DNA of 53,752 nt. Source: Oscillatoria sp. HE19RPO. Its GTDB lineage: Bacteria > Cyanobacteriota > Cyanobacteriia > Cyanobacteriales > Laspinemataceae. Of this stretch, positions 3,295 through 52,793 are shown piece by piece (within the stretch, counting starts at the first letter, position 1; the number at the start of each line of letters is the position of its first letter). The DNA lies in the NCBI RefSeq assembly GCF_024220515.1, contig NZ_JAMXOT010000099.1:1-53752 (forward strand), given 5' to 3'. Below the pieces are notes generated by a model. The model made no database searches, had not been told where the DNA came from, and was given only the letters and a program-made list of their open reading frames with translations. The translations under genes were made by a program, and so were the position numbers.

Positions 3295-3357
3295 AGAATG
3301 AAGAGAATCAGGAGGCGTCAACTTCCTGATTCTCTTCATTCTCATTGTCTTTTTTTT
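3295..3357 (+). terminator. Intrinsic terminator of hemL
   Basis: A perfect 19-bp stem (3295-3313 with 3324-3342) with a 10-nt loop is followed within 8 nt by a run of eight T residues at 3350-3357. It lies about 35 bp after the hemL stop. The stem is nearly A/G-only on one strand, which is unusual for a terminator but makes a very long helix. Confidence 0.9.
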
Positions 3358-3453
3358 GTGTTAATTTATATCAAATTTCAATCTCATAGGTGAACCTCTA
3401 CCCTGGACTGGAACACCATCGATAACCATTACTCCCTTAAAACCGTAAATTCA

Positions 3454-4068: not shown

Positions 4069-4137
4069 ATGGGAGATTTGAATCAGATTCCCTGTCTTTA
4101 AGAGGATAAATATTTGGAAAAACTTGAGACGGGTGGA

Positions 4138-4281
4138 GATCCCCCCCCGCCCCCCTTATTAAGGGGGGAGTAAGAGGAACTTCATTAATATAATTAAGGG
4201 GGGAGTAAGTGGAATCAATTTTTTGTTCTAAGAACTGATACCCTTCAAAGTCCCCCTTCTTAAGGGGGATTTAGGGGGATC
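4138..4281. repeat. GATCCCCC-ended G/C-run repeat element
   Basis: The 3' intergenic region after the NTF2-like gene carries an element bounded by GATCCCCCC at 4138 and GGGGGATC at 4274-4281. It contains several CCCCTTA...TAAGGGGG inverted arms. Sequences of this form are common non-coding dispersed repeats of cyanobacterial genomes. It has no coding potential. Confidence 0.6.
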
Positions 4282-17800: not shown

Positions 17801-20644
17801 ACAAAGATTAAACCCATAATAGGCATAAGCAAAGGCAGCCAAGGGCGAATTCCCATATTCCAGGGAGAGATTAACCATCGTCAAAGCCATTCTGGGTACC
17901 AGTTCCGGCGTCACCACAATCGCTGTTCCCCAGACGCTCATTAAAATCTGCATCGCCGCTAATTTATTGGCATCTTCCATCAAAGGAAGGCGGGATAATT
18001 CCGCAATATCCCACTGAATTGGGGCTAATTCAGCCAGGGACACCCCCAACATTTCCAAAACCATTAAACTGGTATCCACAGCTTTTTGAAGCTGGTTAAT
18101 CGCACTATACAATTGGATGAGAATTTGATAAACCTTAACCCCGTCTAAAACCGTTCGGCTCTGGGGAAGGACCACCGCTGCCAGGGCTTCAACTTCCGGA
18201 TAATGGGTGGTTAAATATTCCGCTTCTACCGCTTCTAGATGAAGTTGGAGGGTGAGGTCATAATGAGTCTGCCAACTCCGGGAGGGTAACAGACTCAAAC
18301 CGTGGTTTAAATACTGGGCTGCTAAATTGTAAGCGCTGGCTGTTTTAGCTTTTCTTCCGGCCCATAAATTGAGGTGAGACAGGTTAATTTTTTCTAATTC
18401 TTCCGTCATCAACTCACTCCCTTGATTGAGATGATTAACGATCATAAATAAGCCTTCAGGCAACGGAAATGAGGGGTCATTCGGGGAGAGGCCCAAGGGA
18501 TTCGCGCTACTCCAGAGCAAGCGGCCAATTTCTAAGTGCCGCTCTGGGCGTTGAGCTTGGGGAATTAAAGAATAGGCGGCTTGTTGAACCCGGTCATGCA
18601 AAAATTTAAACTGAATTTGTCCGGTGTCAATCTCGGGAAGCAAGCTCAATAATTTATAATTTTCATTGATGGGAATGACTAGTCCACTTTGCAGGGCAGA
18701 AAATAAATGGCTTAATACCGCCTCGGGTTGCCAGCGTACAATTTGGCTTAAGGTCTCCAAATCAAAGGGACTGCCAATACAAGCGGCAAGCTGTAAGAGA
18801 GTTTGGGTTTCGCGACTAAATTTGACCAGTTGACTCACCATTAAATCAACTACATTATCCGTGATTCCTTGGGATTCAATTTGGGCCAAATTCCAGTCCC
18901 AATTTTGGCGATCGCCACTTAAATAAATCAGCCCGTTTTGATAGAGGACATTCAAAAATTCCAGGGTGAAAAAAGCATTCCCCCGGGTTTTGGCATAGAC
19001 TAAATCGGCTAAGGGTTGCACCAAGGATTGAGGGGAATGCAGGGTCGCTGCCATTAAGTCCGCCACATCCGAAGCTGTCAAATTGTCCAGGGCGATCGCG
19101 AGCAGATTGGGGCATTCGGTTTCCAGATGTGCCTTCGTCATCATTAGGGGATGGGTACCATCGACCTCGTTATCGCGATAGGCCCCAATGATTAACAAAA
19201 ATTGCAAATCGCGATCGCTTAAAATCGCCTCCAATAAACTTAAAGAAGCCAGATCCGACCACTGGAGGTCATCTAAAAAAATCACCAGGGGATGTTCGCG
19301 ATCGCACAAGGCTTTTAAAAAGTTTTGAACCACCCAATGCAGCCGATTTTGAGCTTCTTGTCCCCCCAAATCCGCCACGGGAGGTTGAGGGCCGATAATT
19401 TTTTCTAAATTGGGAATCATCTCAATTAAAACCTGCCCAGTATTCCCTAGGGCGGCTAAAATGCGACTGCGCCACTCATGAAAGGTTGCTTCCGGTTCCC
19501 CTAAGATAAAATTACAAAACTCATTGAAGGCTTGTCCAAGCTCTAAATACGGAATATTTCTTTGGTATTGGTCAAATTTTACAGCAATAAAGTTACCCCG
19601 TTTAGCGGCGACTGGTTTATGCAGTTCTCGGACTAAAGCGGATTTACCCACCCCGGCATATCCCGCAACAAAAATTAATTCCCGATTCCCCTCGGCAGTG
19701 CGCTCAAATGCTTCCAATAAGGTCTGAATTTGAGCCTTGCGTCCATACAACTGTTGGGGTAAATGAAATCGATCCGAACGGTCCTGCTGTCCCAGGTTCA
19801 AAATGCTGATGGTATTCTCCGTCTGAAGCTGGCGCAAACATTCTTCTAAATCCGCCTTTAATCCATAAGCCGATTGATAGCGTTCTTCGGCATTTTTAGC
19901 CATTAATTTGGCAATTAAGTTAGAGAGAGTGGCCGGAATTTCGGGTTTAACCGTTTGTAAAGAAATGGGCGGTTTGGCAATATGACTATGGACCCATTCC
20001 ATTGGCTCCTCACTCTGGAAGGGTAAGGTCCCGCTTAACAGGTAGTAAAAGGTGACACCGAGGGAATAAAAATCCGTGCGATAGTCAATGCAGCAATTCA
20101 TCCGCCCGGTTTGTTCCGGGGACATATAGGATAAAGTGCCTTCGAGACGATTGGCATTTTGGAAAGTCGGATTTTCCTGGGATAACACCGATGAAATCCC
20201 AAAATCGATAATTTTAACGATTCCCGTCTGGGGATTTAAGACAATGTTACTGGGGTTAATGTCTTTATGAATGATATTTTTTTCATGAATTTTCGAGAGA
20301 ATTTCAGTAATAGCAATAGCTAATCTTAAAAAGTCCCTAAATTCCATTTTTCCGGCAATTTTTAACCGATTTAAAGATTCTGCTCCAAAATCTTCTAGGA
20401 GAAAAAATGGACTATTGCCCTCGTTACTGAACCCATAAACTCGGGGAATTCCAGATAACTTTAGGGATTGGGTTACTTCATATTCGCGCCAAAACCACCC
20501 CAAGCGTTCTGGGGAGGAATAAGCATTTTTAAGCATTTTCAAAATTACAGGTTTTCCTGATGACTTCAGGGACCCGCGATACACTTCGGAGTTAGTGCTT
20601 TCGTAAATTTTTTCGGTTAAAGAAACGTCTGAGAGGGTAAGCAT
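11870..20644 (-). CDS. Giant Ser/Thr kinase-AAA-GAF-PAS6-GAF-histidine kinase-REC protein
   Basis: 2924 residues, one of the multi-kinase proteins found in filamentous cyanobacteria. Residues 1-270 form an intact Ser/Thr protein kinase: VILKMLK lysine, HKDINPSN catalytic loop (D128), DFG, and SPEQTGR. An AAA_16/NACHT-like ATPase follows, with Walker A AGYAGVGKSAL (K334) and Walker B LVIFLDDLQWSD, then a long helical repeat region (about 680-1260). Then come a GAF (about 1300-1470), six PAS, a second GAF, HisKA with H2461 (SHELRSPLNAIL), HATPase (DTGPGIALDE, GTGLGLSIS) and REC (D2766). The final ~60 residues match the shared C-terminal domain. PAS2/PAS6 and PAS4/PAS5 look like internal duplicates. 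Related HstK-type proteins have been linked to heterocyst or stress responses; the role here is unknown. Confidence 0.92.
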   Translation of the reverse strand: MLTLSDVSLTEKIYESTNSEVYRGSLKSSGKPVILKMLKNAYSSPERLGWFWREYEVTQSLKLSGIPRVYGFSNEGNSPFFLLEDFGAESLNRLKIAGKMEFRDFLRLAIAITEILSKIHEKNIIHKDINPSNIVLNPQTGIVKIIDFGISSVLSQENPTFQNANRLEGTLSYMSPEQTGRMNCCIDYRTDFYSLGVTFYYLLSGTLPFQSEEPMEWVHSHIAKPPISLQTVKPEIPATLSNLIAKLMAKNAEERYQSAYGLKADLEECLRQLQTENTISILNLGQQDRSDRFHLPQQLYGRKAQIQTLLEAFERTAEGNRELIFVAGYAGVGKSALVRELHKPVAAKRGNFIAVKFDQYQRNIPYLELGQAFNEFCNFILGEPEATFHEWRSRILAALGNTGQVLIEMIPNLEKIIGPQPPVADLGGQEAQNRLHWVVQNFLKALCDREHPLVIFLDDLQWSDLASLSLLEAILSDRDLQFLLIIGAYRDNEVDGTHPLMMTKAHLETECPNLLAIALDNLTASDVADLMAATLHSPQSLVQPLADLVYAKTRGNAFFTLEFLNVLYQNGLIYLSGDRQNWDWNLAQIESQGITDNVVDLMVSQLVKFSRETQTLLQLAACIGSPFDLETLSQIVRWQPEAVLSHLFSALQSGLVIPINENYKLLSLLPEIDTGQIQFKFLHDRVQQAAYSLIPQAQRPERHLEIGRLLWSSANPLGLSPNDPSFPLPEGLFMIVNHLNQGSELMTEELEKINLSHLNLWAGRKAKTASAYNLAAQYLNHGLSLLPSRSWQTHYDLTLQLHLEAVEAEYLTTHYPEVEALAAVVLPQSRTVLDGVKVYQILIQLYSAINQLQKAVDTSLMVLEMLGVSLAELAPIQWDIAELSRLPLMEDANKLAAMQILMSVWGTAIVVTPELVPRMALTMVNLSLEYGNSPLAAFAYAYYGFNLCRVGEIERGYQLGQFALELLEQFDSAESRCKVHHIFNGFIRHWQEPLPEAIAGLKTTVRLGLETGDLEYTCYATMQYSCYSLLSGLPLGKVIKKHQESLQIIDQCQQEIQFYYTKIWLQLALNLQGNTQETGRLNGEAFDDTQDLHILTQNNSETSLFCFHLAQGMLSYYVKDGSKAVESLTIAAEYEAAIASLMPLGQLPFYDSLAQFALYPSLKESQQQDCLNRVERNQMRLQDWANAGPMTYQHKYDLVAAEKARILAQNWQAAELYERAIVGAREHHFIQEEALAYELAGEFYLHRGMMQIAELYIQKAYALYQQWQGRAKVQQLSGQYPQWLKKPKKQRKPENSSETQSETIQSTSSNPEVVLDLVSVLKSSAALTREIEIDKLLGALMKILIENAGAQKGYLIGEENGEWIVQAAIDENLVTTQPRILLNEVGDGRGDRSLLSGAIVRYAIRTRETVALNDATAEGPFRGDRYIRAHQPKSILCMPILDRAKLSGIIYLENNLISGAFPSDRLEVLKFLSVQAAISLENAKLYSSLRQSESKFNQFLEALPIGISALDPTGKYHYMNQAGQQLLGQIPPPISLEEVSTIDRVYFSGSSRLYPKEQLPGIRALQGAAAMAEDLEIERDGERIPLQVYSTPIFDETGQIIYAINAFTDISARKQAEKLIADYNHTLEAQVAERTEALRQSEERFRNAFESAAVGMCLVAPNGQLLDVNTAVCQMLGYSKSELLALTIQDITYPEDMESDWSHLKELMQGEISYYHLEKRYQHKNGKVIWGLLSVSLVRDSDNQPLYTIKQIQNITLRKTLELNLQQKTEEIDRFFTIALDLLCIGDVDGYLRRVSLGWEKALGYTVAELEGMNIYDLIHPDDYNHTDIAMDELGNGQDVLNFVNRYRHKNGSYRWIEWRSFPVGHLVYATARDITESRAAQEKLRHSEANLAKAQEIAHIGSWEFDPVNQSTLWSDELYRIYGLEPSPTPPSLEPIHPRIHPDTPGLEQREIQDKLRCAEPWELKQQVQRPNGEIREIEVRGEPVFDDEGNLIKWVGTVHDITDRQRIEAKLRQSEAALREAQRIAHIGSWELDMNSQNLSASEEWFQMFGVDPAYPESGYQEHFKAIHPEDRVQLQENLNRAVFEGTPYKMDLRIIEGDRILRYLEARGEAVQDERGSAIHLRGTVLDITERKRTVLALSESEERFRTAFDYAGIGMAIVGLNGRWLKVNRAVCEIIGYREDELLTLDFQTITHPEDLDLDLNYATQLLRGEIGSYQLEKRYIHKQGHFVWVLLTGSLVRTAEGEPLHFIAQVQDVSLQKQAEQILRSQMQREQVLSQFVQSIRNSLELTTISFSAAHESGRLLGADGVKIIQYFPEEGLWRNVAEYRPFDTLPSTLDLDIPDVGNPITEVIKGLKPVALSGWEPDPNDSRVEFLGSFAGHWLILPLQMGTGVWGALCLARNLRESPWDSTEMELLLAIANQLAIALNQAELYQQVEKAREAADKANEAKSAFLASISHELRSPLNAILGFAQLLLSNPALSKDAKENIAIIQRSGEHLLTLINDILDLAKIEAGRTTIVETNFNFYHLLDDLQSMFRLKAQSKGLDFVIERAPEVPEYIRTDEIKLRQVLINLIGNAIKFTQRGRICVAIWEIPPERPSSLADPDNREDQTLNLLCEVSDTGPGIALDELDHLFQAFVQTSTGLEAREGTGLGLSISRKFVELMGGSIEVRSQIGEGSTFSFEIPVTVAAEIEPKPIPPQRRAVALEPNQPQYRILIADDRPDNRTFVIKCLQPFGFDLLESSNGQETVKLWEEWEPHLIFMDLRMPVMDGYEATQQIKGSIKGQGTAIVALTASYLEQENTVGLASGFDGFIRKPFRDTELLDCLTQQLGVRFVYEDPDADAVQTVAVPSVPLTESDWRDIPLDWLNSFNLATKSCDVELMVTLLDEISDRHESCAHTLTNWTQNFEFDQILTFIKSVLD

Positions 20645-22965: not shown

Positions 22966-25776
22966 TCAACTGGGAGGATCGGGGAGGGTAAAGTAAAAGG
23001 TACTGCCTTCACCGAGGATACTTTCCACCCAGATGCGGCCTCCATGTTGATGGACGATGCGCTGACAAATAGTCAACCCTAAGCCGGTTCCCCCTTTTTG
23101 CCGGGAGTCGGAGGCATCTACCTGTTGGAAGGGGTTAAAAATCATCTCGACTTTATCCGGTGGAATGCCTCGACCGGAATCTCGGACGGCGAATAGAACC
23201 CCTTGCCATTGGGGTTGAACCGTCAGGGTAATGATACTTTGCTCGGGAGAAAATTTAATGGCATTACTGAGCAAATTGGTCAAAACCTGCTGAAGGGCAT
23301 CGGGAGAGGCCCAGACGGTGGCGGTCCCGGAGGGTAAGGAGAAGCGGACGCCTTCTTTGTCAGCGATCGCCTGAACCCCTTCTACCGCTTGGGCGATCGC
23401 ATGGGCCGCATCACAGCGTTCCTTGACTAATTCCAGACGACCGGACTCCAGACGCTCTAAATCCAAAATATCATTCACCAGACGCACCAAGCGATCGCTG
23501 TCGGTGAGGGCAATTTCTAACATTCGCTGCACGCGATCGGGCTTATTTTGGTACATCCCACTGGCAAGCAGGCCGATCGCCCCGCGAATCGACGTTAGAG
23601 GCGTGCGGATTTCGTGAGAAACAATCGAGATAAATTCATTTTTCATTCGCTCAATTTGACGGCGATCGCTAATGTCCCGGGCGATGGTGGAGGTCCCGAT
23701 AATCGTCCCCTGACCATCTTTCACGGGAGAGATTGTCAAGGATACATCAATCGAGGTATGATCCTTTCGCATCCGCACAGTTTCATACTGTTGGACCGAT
23801 TCACCCTTGGCAACTTTCTCCAGCAGCATGGTTTCCTCGCCGTGGCGATCGCTCGGTACAATCAGGGTCAAAATCCACTGCCCGATCGCCTCGGCAGCAG
23901 AGTAACCAAATAACCGTTGAGCGCTGGCATTCCAACTCACCACCGTCCCATTCAGGGTTTTGCTAAAAATCGCATCCTCCGAATCCTCGACGATCGCCGC
24001 CAGTTGAGATAAAGCCGCTTCGGTGCGCTTGCGATCGCTAATATCGCGCAAAATTGCCGTAAAAATTTGCTCTCCATCAATCTCCAACTTAGAAATCGAC
24101 GCTTCTGCTGGAAACTCCGTCCCATCGGCACGAAGGGCGGTAATTTCAGTACAGGTTCCCATCGATTGTGCGCGACCCGAGGTTTCGCCAAAATTCTCGA
24201 CCCGCAGACGGTGATTGCTGACAAAGCGACTCGGCATCAGCAAGTCCAAGGGTTGACCCAAAACCTCAAGAACACCATAGCCAAAAATGCGTTCTGCACC
24301 TTGATTAAACAGGGTAATCCGTTGGTTGCCATCCACGGAAATGATCCCATCTCGGGCAATTTCGACCAACCCCGCTAATCGCGCTTGAGAGGCTTGCAGG
24401 GCGCGTTCTGCGGTTTTGCGATCGGTGATATCCATTGACAATCCCGCCACTCTGACTAATTTTCCCGCCCGATCCCGAATGGGAAAAGCGCGAGAATGAA
24501 TCCAGCGCAGGGAACCATCGGGGAGCAAGATCCGATATTCTTGGTTATACTCCCCGTTTAAATATTTTTGACTCATCCCCTGTTCCACTCGGGGACGGTC
24601 TTCGGGATGAATGGCATCCAGCCAGTCGTCCGGGTTGTGATACAGGGTTTCACAACGGCGACCCCAGATTTTTTCATAAGCCGCACTAATGTAGAGCACT
24701 TGTTTGCTGTTGAGATCCACACACCAGAAGACATCTCGAATATTTTCCGCCAACTGACGGAACCGAGACTCACTTTCGCGCAGGTCGGCTTCAGCTTGTT
24801 GGCGACGGGTAATATTGTTGTTTATTTCCAGCACTTGCAGGGGCTTGTGAAATTCATCGTACTGCAAGACCCAGCGCGAAGCCACGACTAATGGGGTGCC
24901 CTGGGGTGGGGTATGGGTAATTTCTCCTTCCCAGTATCCCACACCCAGGAGTTCGGCTTCGATTTCAGCAAGGGGTTGGGGAAATTGGGAGGCGAGGAGT
25001 TGGTGAGAAATTTGCCCGATCGCCTCGGATTTGGAAATGCCATACATTCGTTCCGCACCCCGGTTCCAGAAGGTGATCCGACCGTTGAGGTCTCGGGTGA
25101 GGATGGTATCGTGAGCTAACTCTAATAACTGGGCTTGTTGTTGCAGGAGTTGCTCGGTTTGCTGACGTTCGGTGAGTTCCTGTTGTAGGCGATCGGTGAG
25201 GGCGCTCAGTTGGGCGGTCCGTTCGGCGACCCGGGTTTCCAGTTCCAGATTGGTTTGTTGCAGCAGGGTTTCGGTTTGTTTGCGATCGGTGATATCCGTC
25301 GCCATACTAATCGCCACTCGTCGCCCATCGGCGAGGGTTCCCAGGGAGGCACAGGTAAACTCCCAGGTCCGGGTTTGTCCAGTTTTAGTCCTGATGGTGT
25401 ATTCGGCGTTACAGATGCGTTCCTGCAAATCGTAGAGTTGGGCAATGCAGGCTTGAACGGTTTGGTAGCAGTCAGGATGAGCCTGGAGCGTCCAATCGAC
25501 GAGGGTGGGAATGTCGCGATGATGGTATCCGGTGAGATCGCTCCAGGCTTGGTTGATTTGGATGACTTCCCCATCTTGGCTATGGATCATCAGAGGCAGG
25601 GGGGCCAGATGGAGGATGTTGCGAACCCGATTTTCATCCGCCAATAAAGGGGTTGAGGCCGGGGATGCCTGGGGTGCGAGGGTCTTCCCGCCCAGGCGAT
25701 CGACTTCCCGGCGCAGTTCTTCGAGTTCGGCAATCAGTTGTGCTTGGCTTTTATCCCAGTCGGAAATGCCGTTCAT
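22966..25776 (-). CDS. Five-PAS sensor histidine kinase
   Basis: 936 residues, no membrane segment. A short coiled start (about 1-40) precedes five PAS or PAS-PAC modules (about 50-170, 215-330, 340-460, 470-580 and 590-705), joined by ITDRK/ISDRK-type linkers. The transmitter has H721 in SIVSHEIRTPLTSIRGAIGLL, N box NLLSNAIKF, G1 DSGRGIPPDK and G2 GTGLGLTICQRIV. It ends at the ATPase domain with no receiver, unlike the other large kinases here. It overlaps the preceding regulator gene by ATGA (25773-25776), and that regulator carries REC, wHTH and HPt domains, so the pair forms a likely two-component or phosphorelay system. Signal unknown; one PAS could bind heme or flavin but no diagnostic cysteine is visible. 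Confidence 0.94.
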   Translation of the reverse strand: MNGISDWDKSQAQLIAELEELRREVDRLGGKTLAPQASPASTPLLADENRVRNILHLAPLPLMIHSQDGEVIQINQAWSDLTGYHHRDIPTLVDWTLQAHPDCYQTVQACIAQLYDLQERICNAEYTIRTKTGQTRTWEFTCASLGTLADGRRVAISMATDITDRKQTETLLQQTNLELETRVAERTAQLSALTDRLQQELTERQQTEQLLQQQAQLLELAHDTILTRDLNGRITFWNRGAERMYGISKSEAIGQISHQLLASQFPQPLAEIEAELLGVGYWEGEITHTPPQGTPLVVASRWVLQYDEFHKPLQVLEINNNITRRQQAEADLRESESRFRQLAENIRDVFWCVDLNSKQVLYISAAYEKIWGRRCETLYHNPDDWLDAIHPEDRPRVEQGMSQKYLNGEYNQEYRILLPDGSLRWIHSRAFPIRDRAGKLVRVAGLSMDITDRKTAERALQASQARLAGLVEIARDGIISVDGNQRITLFNQGAERIFGYGVLEVLGQPLDLLMPSRFVSNHRLRVENFGETSGRAQSMGTCTEITALRADGTEFPAEASISKLEIDGEQIFTAILRDISDRKRTEAALSQLAAIVEDSEDAIFSKTLNGTVVSWNASAQRLFGYSAAEAIGQWILTLIVPSDRHGEETMLLEKVAKGESVQQYETVRMRKDHTSIDVSLTISPVKDGQGTIIGTSTIARDISDRRQIERMKNEFISIVSHEIRTPLTSIRGAIGLLASGMYQNKPDRVQRMLEIALTDSDRLVRLVNDILDLERLESGRLELVKERCDAAHAIAQAVEGVQAIADKEGVRFSLPSGTATVWASPDALQQVLTNLLSNAIKFSPEQSIITLTVQPQWQGVLFAVRDSGRGIPPDKVEMIFNPFQQVDASDSRQKGGTGLGLTICQRIVHQHGGRIWVESILGEGSTFYFTLPDPPS

Positions 25777-27677
25777 GGCTGGTTTTCCTTTGTTTTGTGT
25801 TTGAGGGCTTCCAGTTGTTGACGAAAGCGATCGCGTTCGATCCGACTGGTAATGCGGGTGACTAATTCGGGCCCGACAATGGGTTTGCCAATAAAATCAT
25901 CGGCCCCTACGGCGAATACTTGGCGCAGGGATTGAGCATCGGTATGAGCGGTGACGACTAAAATGGGCAGGTCCCCCCAGTTGGGGTCTTGGCGCACCAC
26001 TTGACAGAGGTCTATGCCATTAAATTTTGGCATTTCTAGATCCAAAATCAGTAGGTCCGGGGCGACTGCGGTCAAAATCTCCCAAAATTTTTCAGGATTG
26101 TCGAGGGTGGTGACTTCGAGTCCCCAGGGTTGCAGGAGTTCTTTCATGACGGCGAGGGCGGCAGGGTCGTCATCGACGATCAGGACTTTGGCTTCTGGGG
26201 TGGCTTTGGGGGGGAGGACTTGGGCGATCGCTTTAAAAATTTGGTCGCTGTCGGCGGGTTTGAGCAAAAATCCTCGTCCCCCACACCGGGAAACGGCGAC
26301 GCGATCGGCGAGGTTATCCAGGGCGGTAAAGACGAGTATCGGCAGGGTGGGAAATTGGTGGGCGACTTCCTGCAACCATCGCAGTCCGGCTTTTTCCCCG
26401 GGAGAGGTGCGGGTTTCGGGACAGGCGATATCCAGGAGGATCAGGTCCGGGGTTGTCTGGGCGATCGCGTTTCGCGCTGCGCTGACGGTGAGGGCGCTTT
26501 CGACCCCCATTCCCAGGTTGGCCGCTTGGGCGTTGAGGACACTGGCGATCGCCGGGTCGGAGTCAACGACTAGCAGGGTCCGCACTTTGGCTGGGGAGGG
26601 GATTTCGAGGCTGATCTCGGTGGGGGGTTTGGTCAGTTCTTCGCTTAACGCTTGGGTTAGTTGCTCCAACTGCTGGGTTTCGGCAGTCCCTAGGGGAGTT
26701 TGTGACATCAGCAGGTATTCAATTTTCCGAGCCAAGTTGGAGCCTTCTAAATAGCCAAAAGGACCCAATGACCCGGCCAGTTTATGGGCGTCCTGGATGG
26801 CTCGTTCCTGAAGTTCGTCGGTGAGTTTCCCCGCAGCGAGGGCGTTGTAGGTTTGCCGTAAGAGGGCAATTTGTTGGTTTAACCGGGGTCGATATTTTTC
26901 CAGAATCTGGGCAATGGAGGCGATCGCTTGTAATTTTTTGCCCGGGGTGGGAGTCTTGGACCCGGGGGCAGTTTCGGTTTCGGGGGTCTCGGGATTGGGT
27001 TCCGTGGCGGGTTTGAGTCGATACCCGAGTCCATACACGGTTTCAATGGGGTCGTTGTCAATGCCAATGGCTTTGAATTTCTGCCGCAGGTCTTTAATAT
27101 GAACGGTTACGGCATTTTCGGTGGGGGAATCATCAAAGGACCAAAGGCGATCGATAATGGCGCTGCGACTAAAGACCCGTTGCGGATTTCGCAAAAACAG
27201 TTCCAAAAGCTTATATTCTGTGGCGGTCACCCCCAAGGGTTGCCCATTCCAGGTGACTTCCCCAGAGACGGGGTTTAAGCACAAGTCTAACCAAGTTAGG
27301 GTCTCGGTCACTGGGGTTGTCCCCCGTCGTAGCAAGGCCCGAATCCGCGCCATCAGTTCGGAGAGATTATAGGGTTTGACCACATAATCATCCGCCCCCG
27401 CATCCAACCCGGTGACAATATCCTGGGGAGAGTCTTTCGCCGTCAGCAGCAGGATGGGTTTTTGATACCCTTGTTCCCGCAGTTTCCGACACAAGCTGAT
27501 ACCATCGAGTTTAGGAATTACTAAGTCGAGTAAAATCAGGTCGCATTCCAACATGGTTGCGAGTTCTAGGGCTGTTTCCCCATCGGCGGCGGCTTCTACG
27601 CTATAGTTTTGCTTTCTTAAGGCAACGGAAAGCGCGGCACTGGCCGGTTCGTCATCTTCAACTAGAATAATTTTCAT
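25773..27677 (-). CDS. Composite response regulator REC-wHTH-HPt-REC-REC
   Basis: 634 residues. The N-terminal OmpR-type regulator has REC (about 1-118, LILLDLVIPKLDG) and a winged helix (about 127-226, with VTATEYKLLELFLRNP and VTVHIKDLRQKF), so it should bind DNA. An HPt domain follows, with H298 in AHKLAGSLGPFGY. Two more RECs follow (about 376-490 with LILLDIACPE, and 500-615 with LLILDLEMPKFNG and GKPIV). The presence of HPt and three receivers in a DNA-binding regulator suggests an internal phosphorelay from the overlapping five-PAS kinase. The second REC carries an insertion after its Asp (ETRTSPGEK). It is the first gene of the unit, and the divergent coq4-like gene starts 257 bp away. 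Confidence 0.92.
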   Translation of the reverse strand: MKIILVEDDEPASAALSVALRKQNYSVEAAADGETALELATMLECDLILLDLVIPKLDGISLCRKLREQGYQKPILLLTAKDSPQDIVTGLDAGADDYVVKPYNLSELMARIRALLRRGTTPVTETLTWLDLCLNPVSGEVTWNGQPLGVTATEYKLLELFLRNPQRVFSRSAIIDRLWSFDDSPTENAVTVHIKDLRQKFKAIGIDNDPIETVYGLGYRLKPATEPNPETPETETAPGSKTPTPGKKLQAIASIAQILEKYRPRLNQQIALLRQTYNALAAGKLTDELQERAIQDAHKLAGSLGPFGYLEGSNLARKIEYLLMSQTPLGTAETQQLEQLTQALSEELTKPPTEISLEIPSPAKVRTLLVVDSDPAIASVLNAQAANLGMGVESALTVSAARNAIAQTTPDLILLDIACPETRTSPGEKAGLRWLQEVAHQFPTLPILVFTALDNLADRVAVSRCGGRGFLLKPADSDQIFKAIAQVLPPKATPEAKVLIVDDDPAALAVMKELLQPWGLEVTTLDNPEKFWEILTAVAPDLLILDLEMPKFNGIDLCQVVRQDPNWGDLPILVVTAHTDAQSLRQVFAVGADDFIGKPIVGPELVTRITSRIERDRFRQQLEALKHKTKENQP

Positions 27678-43863: not shown

Positions 43864-46800
43864 ATGGAGATGATTCGGGGTCAATATGAGCCGGTTTTAG
43901 TCACGCTTTCATTAATTATTGCGGCTGTTGCTTCTTACACGGCGTTGGATTTAGCGGGACGGGTTAATCCCAACTCTTCGATGCGATCGCGCTTAATCTG
44001 GAGTGTGGGGGGTGCGGTGGCGATGGGAACCGGCATCTGGTCGATGCATTTTATCGCGATGTTGGCGTTACAGTTGCCGGTCCCCACGGCATACAATATC
44101 CCGCTTACCCTGTTGTCTTGGGTGGATGCGATTGTCGCCTCGGCTTTGGCGATGTTGCTGTACAATCGTCAGCAGTTGAGGGTCGGCCTCCTGGTGGGAG
44201 GGGGGGTGGTCATGGGATTGGCGATCGCATCCATGCATTATCTAGGAATGGCAGCAGTCCAGGTTCCGGCAAGGGTTGAGTACAATCCCTGGGGCGTCAC
44301 CCTGTCTGTGGCAGTCGCCATTTTTGCCTCCACTGCGGCGTTAGGGTTGGCATTTCAGGTTCGCAATTCCCTCAATCCTCATCGGGAATGGGTTAAACTG
44401 GGCAGCGCTGGAATTATGGGAATGGCGATCGCCGGGATGCACTATACCGGAATGTGGGCCACCTGTTTTGAGGCAATTTCCCACCCAGAAGCGATGCAGA
44501 TTCAAGGGGCAGACCCATCCTGGTTAGCGATGCAAATCGGCGTGGGAACGCTGATTTTGCTGATTGGCACCCTAATTACCTCCCTCGTCGATCGCCGCTA
44601 TCAATCCCACCTTTTACGAGAACAGGCCCTCCAGGAAAGTGAAACCCGATTCCGAACTCTGGTGGAAAATATGTCCGTTGGGGTTTTACTTTTAGATAAA
44701 AATGGCACCATTGTATTAAGTAATCCCCTAGCAAGTGACCTGTTAGATGTTCCAGAATCCGAGTTACAAGGGAAAAATGCCTTCGAGTTCAATTGGCAAA
44801 TTCTTTCCCTCGATGGCACCCTTTCGATTCAAGAACAGCATCCCCTTCAGATAGCAGTCGCCCAGGGTCAGCCGGTGCAAAACCAAGTCACAGGAATCTG
44901 TCGGTGGGGGAAAAAAGATACGGTATGGTTGCTGCTGAATATGGACCCGCAACTCGACTCATCGGGCCAGGTGGAACGAGTGGTTTGTACCTTTAGTAAT
45001 ATTAGCGATCGCAAGCAAAGTGAAGATGAAATTCGCCTGCTGTTAGATACCAATCAAGCCATCCGTCATGCACCGGATTTAGAAAATGCCTTAGCCTCTG
45101 TCTTACGCTGCATTTGTATGACCATTAACTGGGATGTAGCAGAGGCTTGGCTTCCCGATGAAAATCAGCAACTCCTCACCTATCGTCCCGGTTGGTATTA
45201 CCCAGAACCCGATGTGGAATCGTTCCGACTGCAACGGGAACCTGTTATCTATCGGTTGGGAGAAGGACTTCCCGGACGGGTTTGGGAGTCTCGGCAACCG
45301 GAATGGATTGAAAATTTGACCGAAGAAACTGACTCTCTCGCCGATGCAGTAATGGCGGTCAAACAGGGATTAAAAGCCAGTTTTGCGGTCCCGATTATCC
45401 GAGGCAATGGGATTTTAGCAGTTTTAACCTTCTTTAAACGCAGAGAAAGTCCCCGAGATGACCGGGCGATCGCCTTAGTGGGGGCGGTTGCCACTCAGTT
45501 AGGTTCCTCCATTGGTCAAAAGGTGGCAGAAGCTGCTTTGAGTGAGAGTGAACGGCGGTTACAATTGGCCTTGGAAGGCAGTGATTTGGGCATCTGGGAT
45601 TGGCAAATTCCCACAGGAAAAACCTATTTTGACCCGCAATGGAAACGGATGCTGGGGTATGAGGTGGAGGAAATTGACAATTACTATCAAATCTGGGAAG
45701 ACTTATTACATCCCGAGGACCGCAAGCCCACGCTGCGGGCGTTACAGGACCATTTAGAGGGGATTCTCCCAGTGTATGAACGGGAATTACGAATGAAATC
45801 AAAGTCTGGGGAGTGGAAATGGATTCTCTCGCGCGGTAAAGTAGTAGAACGAGACCCATCTGGCATCCCCCTACGCATGAGCGGTACCCACAAAGATATT
45901 ACGCCCCGAAAAGTTGCGGAAGCTGCCTTAGATGAGAGTCAAAGGCGGTATCAGACTTTGGCTGAAGCCTCTCCGGTTTGTATTTTTCATACGGATGCCC
46001 AGGGAAATTGTCTTTATGTTAACCAGCGATGGAGTGAGTTGACGGGACTTTCTTTAGAACTGGCGATCGGCAAAAGTTGGATTGCCAATCTCCATCCCGA
46101 TGATTTCAAGCGGGTGCAATCGGAGTGGTTTTTAGCGGCTGAAACTCGGGTTCCGTTTAAGTCAGAATATCGGTTTGTCCGTCCTGATGGGATTGTGGTA
46201 TGGGCGATCGGTCAGGCGATCGCTGAAATCGGCGAGGATGGCTTAGTCAAGGGCTATCTGGGCACCATTACCGATATCAGCGAACGCAAACGGGCAGAAA
46301 TTGCCTTACAGCAGCAGCTAAAACGGGAACGCCTGGTCAGTTCGATTCAGGAACGGATTCGCTCCTCTCTTGACTTAGAGGAAGTCCTGGAAACCGCAGT
46401 GAATGAAGTTCGGAAATTTTTAGCCACGGACCGCATTTTAATTTACCGTTTTAACCCGGACTGGAGTGGGGTAATTGCGGTTGAATCCGTGGGTTCTGAC
46501 TGGATGTCTGTTAAAGGGATTGAAATCGAAGACCGCTGTTTCATTGAAACCCATATTCCCCTGTACGCCCAAGGTCGAATTCGGACGATTGATAATATTC
46601 ACAAGGCTGGACTGTCGGAATGCCATGTGCAACTTCTCAGTCAATTTGCAGTTCAAGCGAATCTGGTGGTTCCTCTGCGACAAGGGGAACAATTATGGGG
46701 ATTGCTGATTGCTCATCACTGTAGTGGAGAACGACAATGGCATGAATCGGAAATTGAATCTCTGCGGCAGCTTTCTGTGCAATTGTCCATCGCCATTCAA

Positions 46801-49353
46801 CAATGTACCCTGTTTGAGCAAGCTAAAATTGAACTGCTGGAACGCAAACGGGCGGAAGATGCCCTGCGCGAAAGTGAGGAACGGTTCAAATTAGCCGTAT
46901 CTGGGACGAATGATGGGATTTGGGATTGGGATTTACAAAATGACCAGATTTATTACTCCCCGGTCTGGATGCAAATTTTAGGGTATGAGGAAGGGGAATT
47001 ACCCTATCGGGTTAGCACTTGGTTTAATAAGGTGCACCCGGATGATTTGTCGGTGGCGATGCAAACCCTGCAAGATCATGTGCAAGGGCAAAATCCACTT
47101 TACTATTATCATACCCACCGCATGGAACGGAAAGATAAAAGTTGGATTTGGGTGGAAGTCAAGGGCAAATGTATCCGAAATGAGCAGGGGGAAGCGTACC
47201 GACTCACGGGAACTTTGACGGATATTACGGAACGGAAAAAAGCGGAAGAAGCTTTACAGGAAAGTGTCCAACGCGAACGAGCCCTGTCCCAAGTGATTCA
47301 ACGAATGCGCGAGACGCTGGATTTGGAAACGATTTTTTCGGCAACCACCCGGGAATTGCGCCAGGTGCTCAAGTGCGATCGCGTGTTGGTTCACCATTTT
47401 CATGACGACTGGCGAGGTGAGGTGGTGGCCGAATCCACGGGTCCCGAATGGATTTCTTTAATGGATAACATCCAGGATTTACCCGAAACGGCGGTGAACC
47501 TAACCGGGGGCGACTCTGATTTGCTAGGGGACAAAGAGGTTGGACTGGAAGATTGCTATATGCAATCCGCCCGGACTGAAGACTGGAATTTAGGCTTGAC
47601 TTATTTGGCGGTAGAAGATGTTTACAAGGCGGGATTTGATGAGTCTTACCTCACTATCCTAGAGCAGTTTCAAGCCAAAGCCTATATTATTGTTCCGATT
47701 TTTTCTGGGAATAAACTCTGGGGATTATTAGCCAGCTATCAAAATAGCGGCCCTCGCCATTGGAAGGAAGCAGAAATTAAAGTGGTGGTTCAAATTGGCA
47801 ATCAGTTGGGAGTCGCCCTCCAGCAAGCGGAGTTACTGGAAAAAACTCAGCGACAATCCCACGCCCTCCAAAAAGCCGCCCTTGCTGCGGATGCGGCCAA
47901 CCGTGCCAAAAGTGAGTTTCTCGCCAATATGAGCCATGAACTGCGTACTCCCCTGAATGCGATTTTGGGGTTTACTCAAATCCTGGCCCGGGATTCCTCC
48001 CTGAAGCCTGAAAATCATGAGCATTTAAAAATTATTAATCGGGCAGGGGGTCATTTGTTGGCTTTGATTAATGATGTGTTGGAAATGTCTAAAATTGAAG
48101 CCGGGAGAATGAGTTTTAATCCGGTCAATTTTGATTTGATTAATTTGCTGAAATCTTTAAATGATATGTTTCAGCTTAAGGCGGATTCTAAGCAACTCGA
48201 TATTATTTTTGAAGGGTGCGATACCCTGCCTCAGTTTGTGAAAACTGATGAGAGTAAATTGCGCCAGGTCCTAATTAATATTGTGGGGAATGCCATTAAA
48301 TTTACGGAAACAGGGCGCGTTATCCTCCGGATTGAAGTGAAAGATGCCCCGCTAGGGGGGAATCCTGGGGAGGGGGATTTTGCGGACTCCGGTAATCGGG
48401 GTCAGTTCTTATATTTTGAAATTGAGGATACGGGTCCCGGTATTGCCCCGGAGGAGATGGGGAAATTGTTTGAACCCTTTGGACAAACAGAAACAGGCCG
48501 GAAATCTCAGCAAGGGACGGGTCTGGGTTTACCAATTAGCCGAAAGTTCGTACAATTAATGGGAGGAGATATTCAGGTCACCAGCACCGTGGGGCAAGGA
48601 ACGGTGTTTGCCTTTGCCGTGGCGATCGCACCAAGTAGCGAGGGAGAGGTTCAAACTCGCCAAACCAAGCGTCGTGCCGTGGCGATCGCCCCCCAAGCTA
48701 AGGCCAACGAATCTCGCATCTTAGTCGTAGATGATGCCTTTGAAAGTCGTCTATTGTTGAAGACAATTTTGAAATCCATCGGATTTCAGGTGCAAGAGGC
48801 GGAGAATGGCCAAGAGGCGATCGCGGTTTATCACAGTTGGAAACCTCACTTAATTTTAATGGATATGCAAATGCCCGTCATGGATGGTTATGAAGCCACC
48901 CGACATATTAAAAGTACCGCTCAGGGTCAAAAAACGACCATTGTCGCTTTAACGGCCAGTGCTTTTGAGGAAGAAAGAAAAATGATTTTAGATGCCGGTT
49001 GCGATGACTTCATTCGCAAGCCGTTTCAAGAAGAACTTTTGCTGGAAACCATCGGCAAATATCTGAAGATTGACTATATTTTTGAAGACCTCTACTCAGA
49101 CGACCTGAACCTCCCCCAGCCAGATAGTCCTAAACCCCAGTATTCCCTCTCCCCGGAGGCTTTAAAAATTATGCCTGAAAGTTGGATTCATCAGCTTTCT
49201 GATGCCGCCATGCAATGCAGCGATGATTTGATTTTAAACTTACTCGAAGAGATTCCCCCGGATCTGGCCCCCTTATCCAAAGCCTTAGCGGAGTTAGCCC
49301 ATAACTATCAGTTTGATCTCATTGAAGAATTGACTCAACAGGAGGGCCAATGA
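43864..49353 (+). CDS. MHYT sensor hybrid kinase with a probable DXCF cyanobacteriochrome GAF
   Basis: 1829 residues. The first ~240 residues are a membrane MHYT domain with three SMHF/SMHY/GMHY motifs (near 60, 123 and 192), a proposed metal/gas sensor. Then PAS (about 259-385), GAF (409-555), PAS (560-680), PAS (695-809), GAF (826-985), PAS (1002-1122) and GAF (1142-1325). The transmitter has H1358 and HATPase (about 1460-1585); a REC (D1667) and the shared C-terminal domain finish it. The second GAF has DRCF (C892) and SECH (C920-H921), 28 residues apart, the pattern of DXCF cyanobacteriochromes that bind a bilin. The third GAF has Y where that cysteine would be. AGGG precedes the ATG. It overlaps the c-di-GMP gene by ATGA. 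Confidence 0.9.
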   Translation: MEMIRGQYEPVLVTLSLIIAAVASYTALDLAGRVNPNSSMRSRLIWSVGGAVAMGTGIWSMHFIAMLALQLPVPTAYNIPLTLLSWVDAIVASALAMLLYNRQQLRVGLLVGGGVVMGLAIASMHYLGMAAVQVPARVEYNPWGVTLSVAVAIFASTAALGLAFQVRNSLNPHREWVKLGSAGIMGMAIAGMHYTGMWATCFEAISHPEAMQIQGADPSWLAMQIGVGTLILLIGTLITSLVDRRYQSHLLREQALQESETRFRTLVENMSVGVLLLDKNGTIVLSNPLASDLLDVPESELQGKNAFEFNWQILSLDGTLSIQEQHPLQIAVAQGQPVQNQVTGICRWGKKDTVWLLLNMDPQLDSSGQVERVVCTFSNISDRKQSEDEIRLLLDTNQAIRHAPDLENALASVLRCICMTINWDVAEAWLPDENQQLLTYRPGWYYPEPDVESFRLQREPVIYRLGEGLPGRVWESRQPEWIENLTEETDSLADAVMAVKQGLKASFAVPIIRGNGILAVLTFFKRRESPRDDRAIALVGAVATQLGSSIGQKVAEAALSESERRLQLALEGSDLGIWDWQIPTGKTYFDPQWKRMLGYEVEEIDNYYQIWEDLLHPEDRKPTLRALQDHLEGILPVYERELRMKSKSGEWKWILSRGKVVERDPSGIPLRMSGTHKDITPRKVAEAALDESQRRYQTLAEASPVCIFHTDAQGNCLYVNQRWSELTGLSLELAIGKSWIANLHPDDFKRVQSEWFLAAETRVPFKSEYRFVRPDGIVVWAIGQAIAEIGEDGLVKGYLGTITDISERKRAEIALQQQLKRERLVSSIQERIRSSLDLEEVLETAVNEVRKFLATDRILIYRFNPDWSGVIAVESVGSDWMSVKGIEIEDRCFIETHIPLYAQGRIRTIDNIHKAGLSECHVQLLSQFAVQANLVVPLRQGEQLWGLLIAHHCSGERQWHESEIESLRQLSVQLSIAIQQCTLFEQAKIELLERKRAEDALRESEERFKLAVSGTNDGIWDWDLQNDQIYYSPVWMQILGYEEGELPYRVSTWFNKVHPDDLSVAMQTLQDHVQGQNPLYYYHTHRMERKDKSWIWVEVKGKCIRNEQGEAYRLTGTLTDITERKKAEEALQESVQRERALSQVIQRMRETLDLETIFSATTRELRQVLKCDRVLVHHFHDDWRGEVVAESTGPEWISLMDNIQDLPETAVNLTGGDSDLLGDKEVGLEDCYMQSARTEDWNLGLTYLAVEDVYKAGFDESYLTILEQFQAKAYIIVPIFSGNKLWGLLASYQNSGPRHWKEAEIKVVVQIGNQLGVALQQAELLEKTQRQSHALQKAALAADAANRAKSEFLANMSHELRTPLNAILGFTQILARDSSLKPENHEHLKIINRAGGHLLALINDVLEMSKIEAGRMSFNPVNFDLINLLKSLNDMFQLKADSKQLDIIFEGCDTLPQFVKTDESKLRQVLINIVGNAIKFTETGRVILRIEVKDAPLGGNPGEGDFADSGNRGQFLYFEIEDTGPGIAPEEMGKLFEPFGQTETGRKSQQGTGLGLPISRKFVQLMGGDIQVTSTVGQGTVFAFAVAIAPSSEGEVQTRQTKRRAVAIAPQAKANESRILVVDDAFESRLLLKTILKSIGFQVQEAENGQEAIAVYHSWKPHLILMDMQMPVMDGYEATRHIKSTAQGQKTTIVALTASAFEEERKMILDAGCDDFIRKPFQEELLLETIGKYLKIDYIFEDLYSDDLNLPQPDSPKPQYSLSPEALKIMPESWIHQLSDAAMQCSDDLILNLLEEIPPDLAPLSKALAELAHNYQFDLIEELTQQEGQ

Positions 49354-51185
49354 ACTCCGAATCTGTTCAAATACTCCAAAAAGATATTCTAATCGTGGAT
49401 GATACTCAAGATAATCTCCGCTATCTGGCCACGATTTTAACCGAGGAAGGCTATAAAGTTCGCAAAGCCTTAAATGGTCAAATGGCCCTCAAAGCCTGTC
49501 GCATTGTTGTCCCGGACTTGATTTTACTGGATATCATGATGCCGGATATGAGCGGGTATCAAGTTTGCGAAATTTTAAAGACAAATGAGGCCACTCGTGA
49601 AGTTCCGGTCATTTTTTTGAGTGCCTTAGATGATGCTTTTGATAAAGTCAAAGCCTTTAACGTCGGCGGGATTGATTATATTAGTAAGCCCTTTCAATTG
49701 GAAGAGGTTTTAGCTCGCATTCAAACTCAACTTTTGCGACGGGATGCTGAATTAAAAATTCAGCAACTCAATGCCGAACTGGAAACTCGGGTTCAAGAAC
49801 GAACCCTTCAGTTAGAACAGTCTAATCAAGAGCTAGTCCAGGAAATCAAGGAACGGAAGCAACTCCAAGAACGGTTACTCCATTTAGCCCTTCATGACCC
49901 CTTGACAAATTTACCCAATCGTGCTTTATTTATGGAACGATTGGACCAGGCGATCGCCTTCCGGAAAGCCAACCCCCAGTATCAGTTTGCCGTCCTGTTT
50001 TTAGACTGCGATCGCTTTAAAGTCGTCAACGATTCTCTCGGTCATCTCGTCGGAGATGAACTCCTGATTGCCATTGCCAAACGCCTCCAATCCGCCCTCC
50101 GAGAAGAAGATACCTTAGCCCGGTTAGGGGGCGATGAATTTGCAGTCCTCGTCGAAGAACTCCCCACCCTCGACCGCGCACAAACCATCGCCGATCGCAT
50201 CTTAAACTCTTTAACCGAACCCTTTCAACTCTCCCGCTATGAAGTCTTTATTAATGCCAGTATCGGCATTACCCTCGGCAGTTTCTACCACGAAAAACCC
50301 GAATATCTCCTCCGGGATGCGGACACCGCCATGTACCATGCCAAAGCCCTAGGCAAAGGCCAATATTACCTCTTCGATCCGGCCATGCATGATGAGGCAT
50401 TAAACCGTCTCCAGCTTGAAAATGACTTGCGACGGGCCGTAGAACGACAAGAGTTTAAAGTTTATTATCAGCCGATTATTTCCCTGACTAGCGGCAAAAT
50501 TTACGGCTTTGAAGCCCTGGTGCGCTGGCAACATCCCACCCGAGGATTTATCTCTCCCATCGATTTTATCCCCATCGCTGAAGAAACAGGTTTAATCGCC
50601 AGTATTGACCTGTGGGTATTACAGGAATCCGTTCGACAACTCCAAGCGTGGCAACATCAAAACCTGATTAATGACACGGTAACTTGTAGTGTCAATTTAT
50701 CAGCGCGGCATTTTCTGCAATTTTCATTTATCCAGCATCTGCGGGAACTCCTGGAGTCCACCCAAATCAATCCTCAAATGATTAAACTGGAAATTACCGA
50801 AAGTGCGATCGCCAATCAAAACCAAGCCACCCTGGACATTCTCCACCAAATTCGCGACTGCCAGATAGAATTAAGCATTGATGACTTTGGCACCGGCTAT
50901 TCTTCCTTAAGTTACCTCGAAGAATTTCCCGTCAATGTCCTCAAAATTGACCGTTCCTTTATCAATCGCATCGATGGCAAGGAACATCAGTGCGGATTAG
51001 TTCCCGGTATTATCGGAATTGCTCACACAATGGGGATGATTGCGATCGCCGAAGGGGTGGAAACTCCCCTCCAATTAGAAAAACTCCGAGGATTAGGCTG
51101 TGATTTCGCCCAGGGATACCTCTTTTCTAAACCCTTAGATCCAGAGGCGATCGGCGAATTGTTAGCCCGTTCTCCCCAGTGGTAA
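49350..51185 (+). CDS. REC-GGDEF-EAL c-di-GMP enzyme
   Basis: 611 residues, cytoplasmic. REC (about 11-130) has D61 in LILLDIMMPD and ISKPF. A coiled coil (about 135-175) leads to a GGDEF domain with intact GGDEF (260-264) and REED five residues before it, matching the inhibitory I-site RxxD. An EAL domain follows with FEALVRW (388-390), the SIDDFGTGYSSL motif and EGVET, so both synthase and phosphodiesterase look competent. Net activity is probably set by phosphorylation of the REC by the upstream hybrid kinase. The ATG overlaps the upstream stop (49350-49353), preceded by GGAGGG. Confidence 0.95.
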   Translation: MNSESVQILQKDILIVDDTQDNLRYLATILTEEGYKVRKALNGQMALKACRIVVPDLILLDIMMPDMSGYQVCEILKTNEATREVPVIFLSALDDAFDKVKAFNVGGIDYISKPFQLEEVLARIQTQLLRRDAELKIQQLNAELETRVQERTLQLEQSNQELVQEIKERKQLQERLLHLALHDPLTNLPNRALFMERLDQAIAFRKANPQYQFAVLFLDCDRFKVVNDSLGHLVGDELLIAIAKRLQSALREEDTLARLGGDEFAVLVEELPTLDRAQTIADRILNSLTEPFQLSRYEVFINASIGITLGSFYHEKPEYLLRDADTAMYHAKALGKGQYYLFDPAMHDEALNRLQLENDLRRAVERQEFKVYYQPIISLTSGKIYGFEALVRWQHPTRGFISPIDFIPIAEETGLIASIDLWVLQESVRQLQAWQHQNLINDTVTCSVNLSARHFLQFSFIQHLRELLESTQINPQMIKLEITESAIANQNQATLDILHQIRDCQIELSIDDFGTGYSSLSYLEEFPVNVLKIDRSFINRIDGKEHQCGLVPGIIGIAHTMGMIAIAEGVETPLQLEKLRGLGCDFAQGYLFSKPLDPEAIGELLARSPQW

Positions 51186-51290: not shown

Positions 51291-51851
51291 TTAAACCCCT
51301 ATAGGTTGTTGCAACTGCTGTAACTGCTCTAATAAGCGGCTCACTTGAGCATTGGGTTCTAAAAATGAAAACAGATGCTTAAACCGTAACTTGCCCTCTA
51401 TATCCAGTAAATACTGGGCCGGTAACGGTGCACCCAAAGCTTGTCCTGTCCCATACGCCCGAAACACTAAACAACTTGGGTCGCACAACACCGGCATTTT
51501 TAATCCCAAATCCCGGATGACAATTTGAGATTGACGTTCATCGGTACTGGTAATTAATAACACTTCCGCACCGGCTTCTACAAACTGCTCATACGCCGTA
51601 TTCATGGCCTTAATGTGAGGAAAACAGAGGGGACAATATTGTTTTTCCGTAAAAATCCGAGTAAAATAGAGAATGACAGGTTGTTTTTCGCGGTATTCAG
51701 AAAGGCGAATCGAACCCTCCCCATTGACATGAGGAAGTTGAAAGTCAGGGGGGCAAACTTCCGGGTAGAGTTTATTGAGGGCAGGAACCGGCAGAAAATT
51801 ATTGAAAAAGCGTTGATTGAGTAATCCTCTAAAATCCGTAGATGTCAACAT
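51291..51851 (-). CDS. Peroxiredoxin-like (AhpC/TSA) protein
   Basis: 186 residues, a redoxin fold. FTEKQYCPLCFPHIKAMN shows a CPLC motif, in place of the usual thioredoxin-like or single peroxidatic Cys, followed by EVLLITSTDERQSQIVIRDLG and LDIEGKLRFKHLFSF. It likely reduces peroxide or acts as a thiol-disulfide protein; which is not resolvable. The neighbouring gene is a typical 2-Cys peroxiredoxin on the same strand, 170 bp upstream. Confidence 0.8.
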   Translation of the reverse strand: MLTSTDFRGLLNQRFFNNFLPVPALNKLYPEVCPPDFQLPHVNGEGSIRLSEYREKQPVILYFTRIFTEKQYCPLCFPHIKAMNTAYEQFVEAGAEVLLITSTDERQSQIVIRDLGLKMPVLCDPSCLVFRAYGTGQALGAPLPAQYLLDIEGKLRFKHLFSFLEPNAQVSRLLEQLQQLQQPIGV

Positions 51852-52022
51852 GGTTTAAACCTCTTGAGCCAATTCATTAAAAAAATTATGCCTAAATTTT
51901 AAACCCAACTCAATCCCTGCTGAAGTCGCTTGGGGAAAGAGTTGGGTTTCAAAGGGTTGAAAGGCGATCGCCGATCAAGTTTCCATCGCGATCGCCTCCG
52001 ATGCCAATCCCACCAATGGGAA

Positions 52023-52619
52023 TTAGATAGCGGCAAAGAATTCTTTAGACTTCTTGGGATCCGGGTTCATCGTCTTCGCACCGGGTTGCCAACCTGCCGG
52101 ACAAACTTCATCGGGGTGAGTTTGAACGTGCTGAATCGCTTGCAGAATCCGCAGGGTTTCTTCGACATTACGGCCAAATGCCAGGTTATTGATAGTGGCG
52201 TGCTGGATCACACCGTCTTTGTCGATGATAAATAGTCCACGCAGAGCAATTCCCGCTTCAGGATCGAGGACATTGTAAGCGGAACTAATTTCCTTCTTGA
52301 TATCGGAAACCAGAGGATAGTTCAAGTCGCCGAGACCCCCAGACTTGCGATCGGTTTGGATCCAAGCCAGGTGAGAGAATTCACTGTCAACCGACACACC
52401 CAGCACTTCGGTGTTCAGTTGGCTGAATTTTCCATGACTGTCGCTAAACGCAGTAATTTCCGTCGGACAGACAAAGGTAAAGTCTAAGGGATAGAAGAAC
52501 AACACCACATATTTACCCCGGTAGTCGGAGAGTTTGATGGTTTTGAACTCTTGATCCACAACGGCAGTGGCAGTGAAGTCGGGGGCCTGTTGGCCGACGC
52601 GGATACATCCTTCGGTCAT
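52023..52619 (-). CDS. Typical 2-Cys peroxiredoxin
   Basis: 198 residues from the second ATG ([15 protein letters not shown]), 5 residues inside a longer frame; GGAG lies 9 nt before it and homologues start there. It reduces hydrogen peroxide and organic peroxides, recycled by thioredoxin. DFTFVCPTE holds the peroxidatic Cys (C51) and EVCPAGW the resolving Cys (C173). GGLG is present but the C-terminal YF motif of sensitive peroxiredoxins reads EFF, so sensitivity to overoxidation may differ. No operon partner; the next minus gene is another peroxiredoxin-like protein. Confidence 0.96.
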
Positions 52620-52793
52620 TGTTTGATTCTCCATGTTATGAGGGTTAACTGGCGCGAACCTGCTGTGGCGTAGGCTTGGAAAGCACGCTCACGGCGATTA
52701 ACGCACCGGATTCTTTACGAACCGTTACAAGAATATCATAATCATAACGATTTTGAGTAGGGGGAGATGGGGGAGATGGGGAGGATTGCTCAT

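Follow-up and report, generated by a model that had tools for sequence, protein, structure and literature searches.

A predicted DXCF-type cyanobacteriochrome domain in an MHYT hybrid histidine kinase adjoining a REC-GGDEF-EAL gene in Oscillatoria sp. HE19RPO

Introduction

Can a membrane-anchored hybrid kinase of a filamentous cyanobacterium be recognized as a two-cysteine light sensor, and where might its signal go? The question was raised by a 53,752-nucleotide stretch of Oscillatoria sp. HE19RPO (NZ_JAMXOT010000099.1), here called the window, which corresponds to contig 56 in a genome of 7.67 Mb. A first-pass annotation had proposed that the second GAF domain of an MHYT kinase encoded in it is a DXCF-type cyanobacteriochrome (CBCR) domain. 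We examined this proposal by alignment, structural modelling, phylogeny and comparison with other genomes. "Congeners" refers throughout to eight genomes of the window's genus, taken as Laspinema, with the window included.

Domain organization of the kinase

The kinase, its domains and motif residues, and the gene that follows it are located in the window as follows, with the basis of each assignment in parentheses.

43864..49353, + strand: MHYT hybrid histidine kinase, 1829 aa (open reading frame and Pfam)
43891..44598, + strand: MHYT membrane domain, about aa 10-245 (Pfam PF03707, E 8.9e-46)
45076..45507, + strand: GAF1, aa 405-548 (Pfam GAF_2 match, alignment)
46324..46824, + strand: GAF2, aa 821-987, second of three GAFs, predicted DXCF-type CBCR GAF (Pfam, PDB match, alignment, tree, model)
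46531..46542, + strand: D890-R-C892-F893, putative second (C10-ligating) Cys motif (aligned to TePixJ D-P-C-F)
46537-46539, + strand: C892 codon (motif positions)
46621..46626, + strand: C920-H921, putative canonical bilin-binding Cys-His (aligned to TePixJ C-H)
46621-46623, + strand: C920 codon (motif positions)
47272..47847, + strand: GAF3, about aa 1137-1328, insert-Cys-like CBCR GAF without insert and canonical Cys (tree, alignment, dN/dS)
47644-47646, + strand: S1261 of GAF3, at the place of the canonical Cys (alignment)
47905..48105, + strand: HisKA, phospho-acceptor H1358 in HELRTP (Pfam, motif)
48247..48621, + strand: HATPase_c (Pfam)
48718..49053, + strand: C-terminal receiver (REC) domain of the kinase (Pfam)
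49350..51185, + strand: response regulator REC-GGDEF-EAL, 611 aa, start overlapping the kinase stop (Pfam, motifs)

The domain order is MHYT-PAS-GAF1-PAS-PAS-GAF2-PAS-GAF3-HisKA-HATPase-REC, in which the MHYT, PAS, GAF, HisKA, HATPase_c and REC domains were found by Pfam; an Hpt domain was not predicted by Pfam in the kinase. The MHYT assignment of the earlier annotation was borne out by the PF03707 match and by three Met-His motifs: MHFIAM (aa 61), MHYLGM (aa 124) and MHYTGM (aa 192). For GAF2 we used the limits aa 821-987, Pfam's best GAF stretch being aa 837-978. GAF1 was considered as a photosensor and rejected, as no Cys-His aligned.

GAF2 sequence and predicted fold

The D-R-C-F and Cys-His motifs lie at the residues given in the first-pass annotation, and C892 and C920 are 28 residues apart, the same spacing as in the TePixJ pair. 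The annotation had named a cysteine pair falling outside the bilin pocket as a sequence-level result that would speak against it; instead, both residues fell, with no gaps, on the second Cys and the canonical Cys of TePixJ. D890-C892-F893 occupied the TePixJ DXCF place, and C920-H921 aligned with the Cys-His of both TePixJ and AnPixJg2. By residue counting, we take the canonical Cys of TePixJ to be C522. N933 and H951 of GAF2 were identical to their TePixJ counterparts; as a point against the assignment, residues 896-898 read T-H-I where TePixJ has H-W-V. The accessible part of PMC6955287 names D492, C494 and Q526 of TePixJ.

An AlphaFold model of GAF2, built from a 52-sequence alignment, had a pLDDT of 91.0 and a pTM of 0.88. 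CBCR GAFs were the top Foldseek PDB matches of this model and phytochromes ranked lower: TePixJ structures superposed at 1.1 A (4glq), 1.3 A (6p58), 1.4 A (4fof) and 2.2-2.3 A (3vv4), and AnPixJg2 (3w2z) at 1.7 A. By sequence, the best PDB match was PPHK (6oap; E 4.2e-54, 51% identity), and the matches after it included NpR6012g4, engineered NpR3784, RcaE, AnPixJg2 and TePixJ.

In an 80-row tree the XRG (AnPixJ-type) group was split from the rest with support of 100/99; GAF2 and TePixJ fell on the non-XRG side, although the exact place of TePixJ is unsure because it forms a long branch. GAF2 lay within a clade of 36 rows (98/92), 33 of them DxCF. Membership of the red/green XRG group was also rejected from the motif: WXDXXL is absent from GAF2, which has I-E-D-R-C-F there instead. 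The alignment to TePixJ, the fold matches to TePixJ and AnPixJg2 and the tree split thus all backed the proposed class, and on sequence and modelled fold we accept GAF2 as a DXCF-type CBCR GAF, with bilin binding by the domain and light sensing by the kinase as predictions. As a light domain it is nothing unusual: DXCF chemistry is already known (PMC11284453, in the part available), as are blue-light CBCRs that act on c-di-GMP, and GAF2 is therefore another member of a familiar type.

Conservation of GAF2 and chromophore supply

GAF2 of the seven other genus members was 95-99% identical to that of the window. D890, C892, F893, C920 and H921 were intact across the genus, with both cysteines present in 8/8 congeners. 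The dN/dS of GAF2 over seven congeneric genes was 0.063, second lowest of ten segments; the lowest was that of the next PAS domain (0.025). Conservation and fold together rule out a chance motif.

For a wider comparison, 112 distinct related GAFs were used, a set gathered by likeness to GAF2 and so not a random sample of GAFs; 94 had both cysteines, thirteen the canonical Cys only, four the second only and one neither. The C892 position was accordingly kept in 98/112. The second Cys was missing in 14, of which 12 had Tyr at that place, as in PPHK and NpR3784, and the canonical Cys was missing in five. These sequences were drawn from 205 match rows, 134 of which reached 150 bits and were longer than 150 aa, by removal of exact duplicates.

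The host genome encodes one PcyA (325.8 bits against a cut-off of 206) and two heme oxygenases, and from genes alone it is expected to make phycocyanobilin. Further CBCR matches of the host genome were seen in loci L165 and L166; no MHYT ORF was found in L165-L167.

MHYT and cyanobacteriochrome combinations in other genomes

Of 59 genomes, 28 contained MHYT domains; a survey of 292 genomes of the phylum gave 24 with matches at or below E 1e-17, and both counts include the host's own. The loci fetched outside the genus held 48 MHYT ORFs in 47 loci, some of these ORFs being fragments and two loci (L181 and L182) coming from one genus; a weak match (G056:C2, E 1.7e-4) was left out. Thirteen of the 48 carried a CBCR-like GAF of at least 180 bits, with scores raised for seven of them because these stood in the profile's own alignment. 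Ten of the thirteen were of the insert-Cys type. The others were L156 (DPCF with CH), L138 (DTFF with CH) and L178, in which the motif Cys is missing but CH is kept. All ten insert-Cys proteins were histidine kinases, by Pfam for seven and by HisKA motif for L148, L182 and L183; L138 and L156 were kinases as well. The L178 protein (1476-4205, - strand) is by Pfam a chemoreceptor with MHYT, CBCR GAF, PAS and MCP signalling domains, and its GAF motif reads N-D-P-F, with the second Cys apparently missing and the Cys-His kept.

The same combination was sought from the GAF2 side. GAF2 retrieved 79 named loci, with flanks of at most 6 kb, and an MHYT ORF was visible in six of them: four from congeners, L062 from Oscillatoria princeps, and L120. 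The MHYT proteins of L062 and L120 both had DxCF GAFs. Within the genus, the MHYT part was visible in 7/8 congeners; for the eighth (G005), the contig starts within the gene.

GAF3 and its missing cysteines

GAF3 fell on the XRG side of the tree (100/99), in a group (100/98) with six GAFs of similar sequence from other MHYT kinases. In 8/8 congeners, window included, GAF3 has neither the insert Cys nor the canonical Cys. Outside the genus, both were present in 11/11 aligned GAF3-type domains, namely that of O. princeps and ten identified in the MHYT genome surveys: the insert Cys stood in a common column of a long insertion, and the canonical Cys was followed by Tyr in all eleven. A CxxK motif was seen in nine of these domains and D-T/S-Y-L in ten, the remaining one having DTYF. 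A much diverged GAF in the GAF3 region of another MHYT protein (L176), which at 58 bits was under the cut-off and was left out of the alignment, had neither cysteine. GAF3 was also considered as a DXCF domain and rejected: its Cys is one place off (D-C-Y-M) and is W in one of the 8 congeners.

GAF3 showed a dN/dS of 0.109 over seven congeneric genes, indicating purifying selection. With these two cysteines at 0/8 in the genus versus 11/11 among the aligned domains outside, the insert-Cys sensor seems, from these alignments, to have lost bilin attachment in the genus while GAF2 kept its own. The MHYT kinase of O. princeps (L062:2884-9183) carries a DXCF GAF and an insert-Cys GAF, both with their cysteines, and is followed by a REC-GGDEF-EAL gene; by its sequence it is a candidate for a natural dual photosensor.

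The adjoining REC-GGDEF-EAL gene

The 611-aa protein encoded directly after the kinase has GGDEF, RxxD, EAL and DDFGTG motifs, all present. A 619-aa open frame with GGDEF and EAL motifs adjoins the kinase in 7/7 other congeners, and the gene pair is thus kept in 8/8 congeners; it also occurs in O. princeps. A REC-GGDEF-EAL gene adjoins six of the ten other kinases of the MHYT/insert-Cys type (L140, L148, L149, L181, L182 and L183), with gaps of -15 to 216 bases; the L140 neighbour is without the GGDEF letters, though Pfam detects the domain. Three of the ten (L150, L153 and L179) have no REC gene directly downstream. Beside the L175 kinase, L188:427-2445 encodes a REC-adenylate/guanylate cyclase in place of GGDEF-EAL. 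No REC gene directly adjoined the MHYT genes of L138, L156 and L178 within the locus pieces examined, and none stood next to the MHYT kinase of L120. That the two genes are neighbours is not proof of phosphotransfer from the kinase to the GGDEF-EAL protein. Neither the absence of the GAF3 cysteines nor this neighbouring gene figured in the first-pass annotation.

Proposed mechanism and alternative explanations

Taken as a whole, the data are probably best explained by GAF2 acting as a dual-Cys CBCR photosensor in a membrane-anchored hybrid kinase that signals towards c-di-GMP. Our best reading is that the kinase senses violet/blue versus longer-wave light and acts on c-di-GMP, with a possible copper or gas input. 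In such a mechanism, C920 would hold phycocyanobilin through ring A, perhaps isomerised to phycoviolobilin. In the dark state C10 would also be bonded to C892, giving a form that absorbs violet/blue and that light would turn into a teal-to-orange one. The signal would run on through the next PAS domain and the linkers and, beyond the cysteine-free GAF3, reach H1358. Phosphate would then move to the kinase REC domain and from there, with a separate phosphotransfer protein as the probable intermediary, to the REC-GGDEF-EAL protein encoded alongside, whose phosphorylation would shift the c-di-GMP level. The MHYT domain may be a second input, possibly for a diatomic gas bound at copper, or a membrane anchor; by analogy, a gas input is a guess, and the joining of light and gas sensing in one kinase is plausible. 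What the data show directly is the order of the domains, where the cysteines lie, their conservation, the pairing of the two genes and the presence of genes for making the chromophore; that GAF2 binds bilin, which colours it absorbs, how the signal travels and which way the output turns are inferences.

Two alternatives concern the chemistry of GAF2. The domain might bind bilin by C920 only, with C892 not on C10, and undergo a single-Cys photocycle, the kind anticipated for PPHK and NpR3784, both DxYF proteins. PPHK, the closest solved structure, has just such a DQYF motif, and on the 80-row tree DxYF rows were nested among DxCF rows: the DxCF label needed four changes and the DxYF label three, at least two of them forced by well-supported branches. 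This interchange means that C892 may be dispensable in some members. C892 is nevertheless exactly at the place of the TePixJ second Cys and is retained throughout the genus and in most related GAFs, and we regard a single-Cys photocycle as unlikely. A domain that keeps the fold and cysteines but binds no bilin, its role being structural or the binding of a small ligand, as seems to be the case for GAF3, is more improbable still. GAF3 shows that such a change does occur in the family, since it is without cysteines in the same protein and yet under purifying selection; against this, the five motif residues of GAF2 are intact in the genus, its dN/dS is low and bilin synthesis genes are present in the host genome.

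The remaining alternative concerns the output: the REC-GGDEF-EAL protein might be served by another kinase, with the window kinase signalling elsewhere. The three related kinases with no downstream REC gene and the one beside a cyclase are in keeping with this, but the constancy of the pair in the genus and in O. princeps, and its recurrence in six of the ten other kinases, argue for a shared pathway, and we consider a separate output possible but doubtful.

A wider interpretation can be offered only tentatively. Cyanobacteria may possess a recurrent two-gene module whose hybrid kinase unites a copper- or gas-sensing MHYT domain with a dual-Cys UV/blue-to-green CBCR and sets c-di-GMP through the adjoining REC-GGDEF-EAL protein. 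In the genus, light input would have been handed from the original insert-Cys GAF3, whose cysteines were lost, to the DXCF GAF2, which was kept, with O. princeps as an intermediate that has both; this order of events is an interpretation of ours.

Comparison with known systems

The TePixJ GAF (3vv4, 4fof, 4glq, 6p58) is a DXCF CBCR like GAF2; the two are 41% identical over 150 aligned residues, and their cysteines align at the same spacing. The proteins around them differ: a chemotaxis receptor in the case of TePixJ, an MHYT hybrid kinase in that of GAF2. The GAF of the dual-sensor histidine kinase PPHK (6oap, 6oaq, 6ob8) is closer in sequence but is without the second Cys; the part of its description available to us presents PPHK as a phycocyanobilin-binding kinase and terms it phosphorylation-responsive.

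The GAF3-type domains outside the genus share a loop Cys, a DTYL-like motif and a canonical Cys with the insert-Cys CBCRs Mbr3854g4, Mbl3738g2, NpF2164g3 and NpR1597g2, a comparison by features described in the available part of PMC5240096. There the second Cys of insert-Cys CBCRs is placed in a loop, within a CXXR/K motif of low conservation, and the site that is DXCF in other dual-Cys CBCRs reads DTYL. These domains have Cys-Tyr, in contrast to the Cys-His of AnPixJg2, and GAF3 of the window has neither cysteine.

SesA/Tlr0924 and Cph2 resemble the window in that a blue/green CBCR is tied to c-di-GMP. In those proteins, as presented in the accessible part of PMC5812497, GGDEF is fused to the CBCR, whereas in the window's system a membrane kinase would reach a separate REC-GGDEF-EAL protein by phosphorelay. 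The MHYT domain of the kinase has a counterpart in CoxC, which according to the available portion of PMC11347149 senses CO with copper, with O2 competing with CO; CoxC is an MHYT-LytTR DNA-binding repressor, in contrast to the hybrid kinase of the window. MHYT activity was called unknown in a 2022 review (PMC8846402, in part), and the accessible text of that review names both MHYT and cyanobacteriochrome but joins them nowhere. In the open-access literature, with subscription papers mostly outside the scope, we found no description of an MHYT and CBCR kinase with a REC-GGDEF-EAL neighbour. The newer part of the present findings is this recurrent arrangement, not the light domain.

If the proposed mechanism holds, a single kinase of a filamentous cyanobacterium responds to light colour and perhaps also to a gas or a metal, and passes this on to c-di-GMP, which sets motility and aggregation in other cyanobacteria. 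The cysteine-free GAF3 beside an intact GAF2, set against O. princeps with both intact, would offer a natural comparison for a change of colour input in a multi-sensor kinase.

Other genes in the window

Further signalling genes were seen on the - strand of the window. Positions 11870-20644 encode a 2924-aa protein with Ser/Thr protein kinase, AAA ATPase, GAF, PAS and hybrid histidine kinase parts, and at 22966-27677 a PAS histidine kinase gene overlaps another whose product is a response regulator made up of three RECs and a DNA-binding domain. Beside the kinase/GGDEF-EAL pair, at 51291-52634 (- strand), lie two AhpC/TSA-family (peroxiredoxin-like) genes, which were also nearby in 6/7 other congeners.
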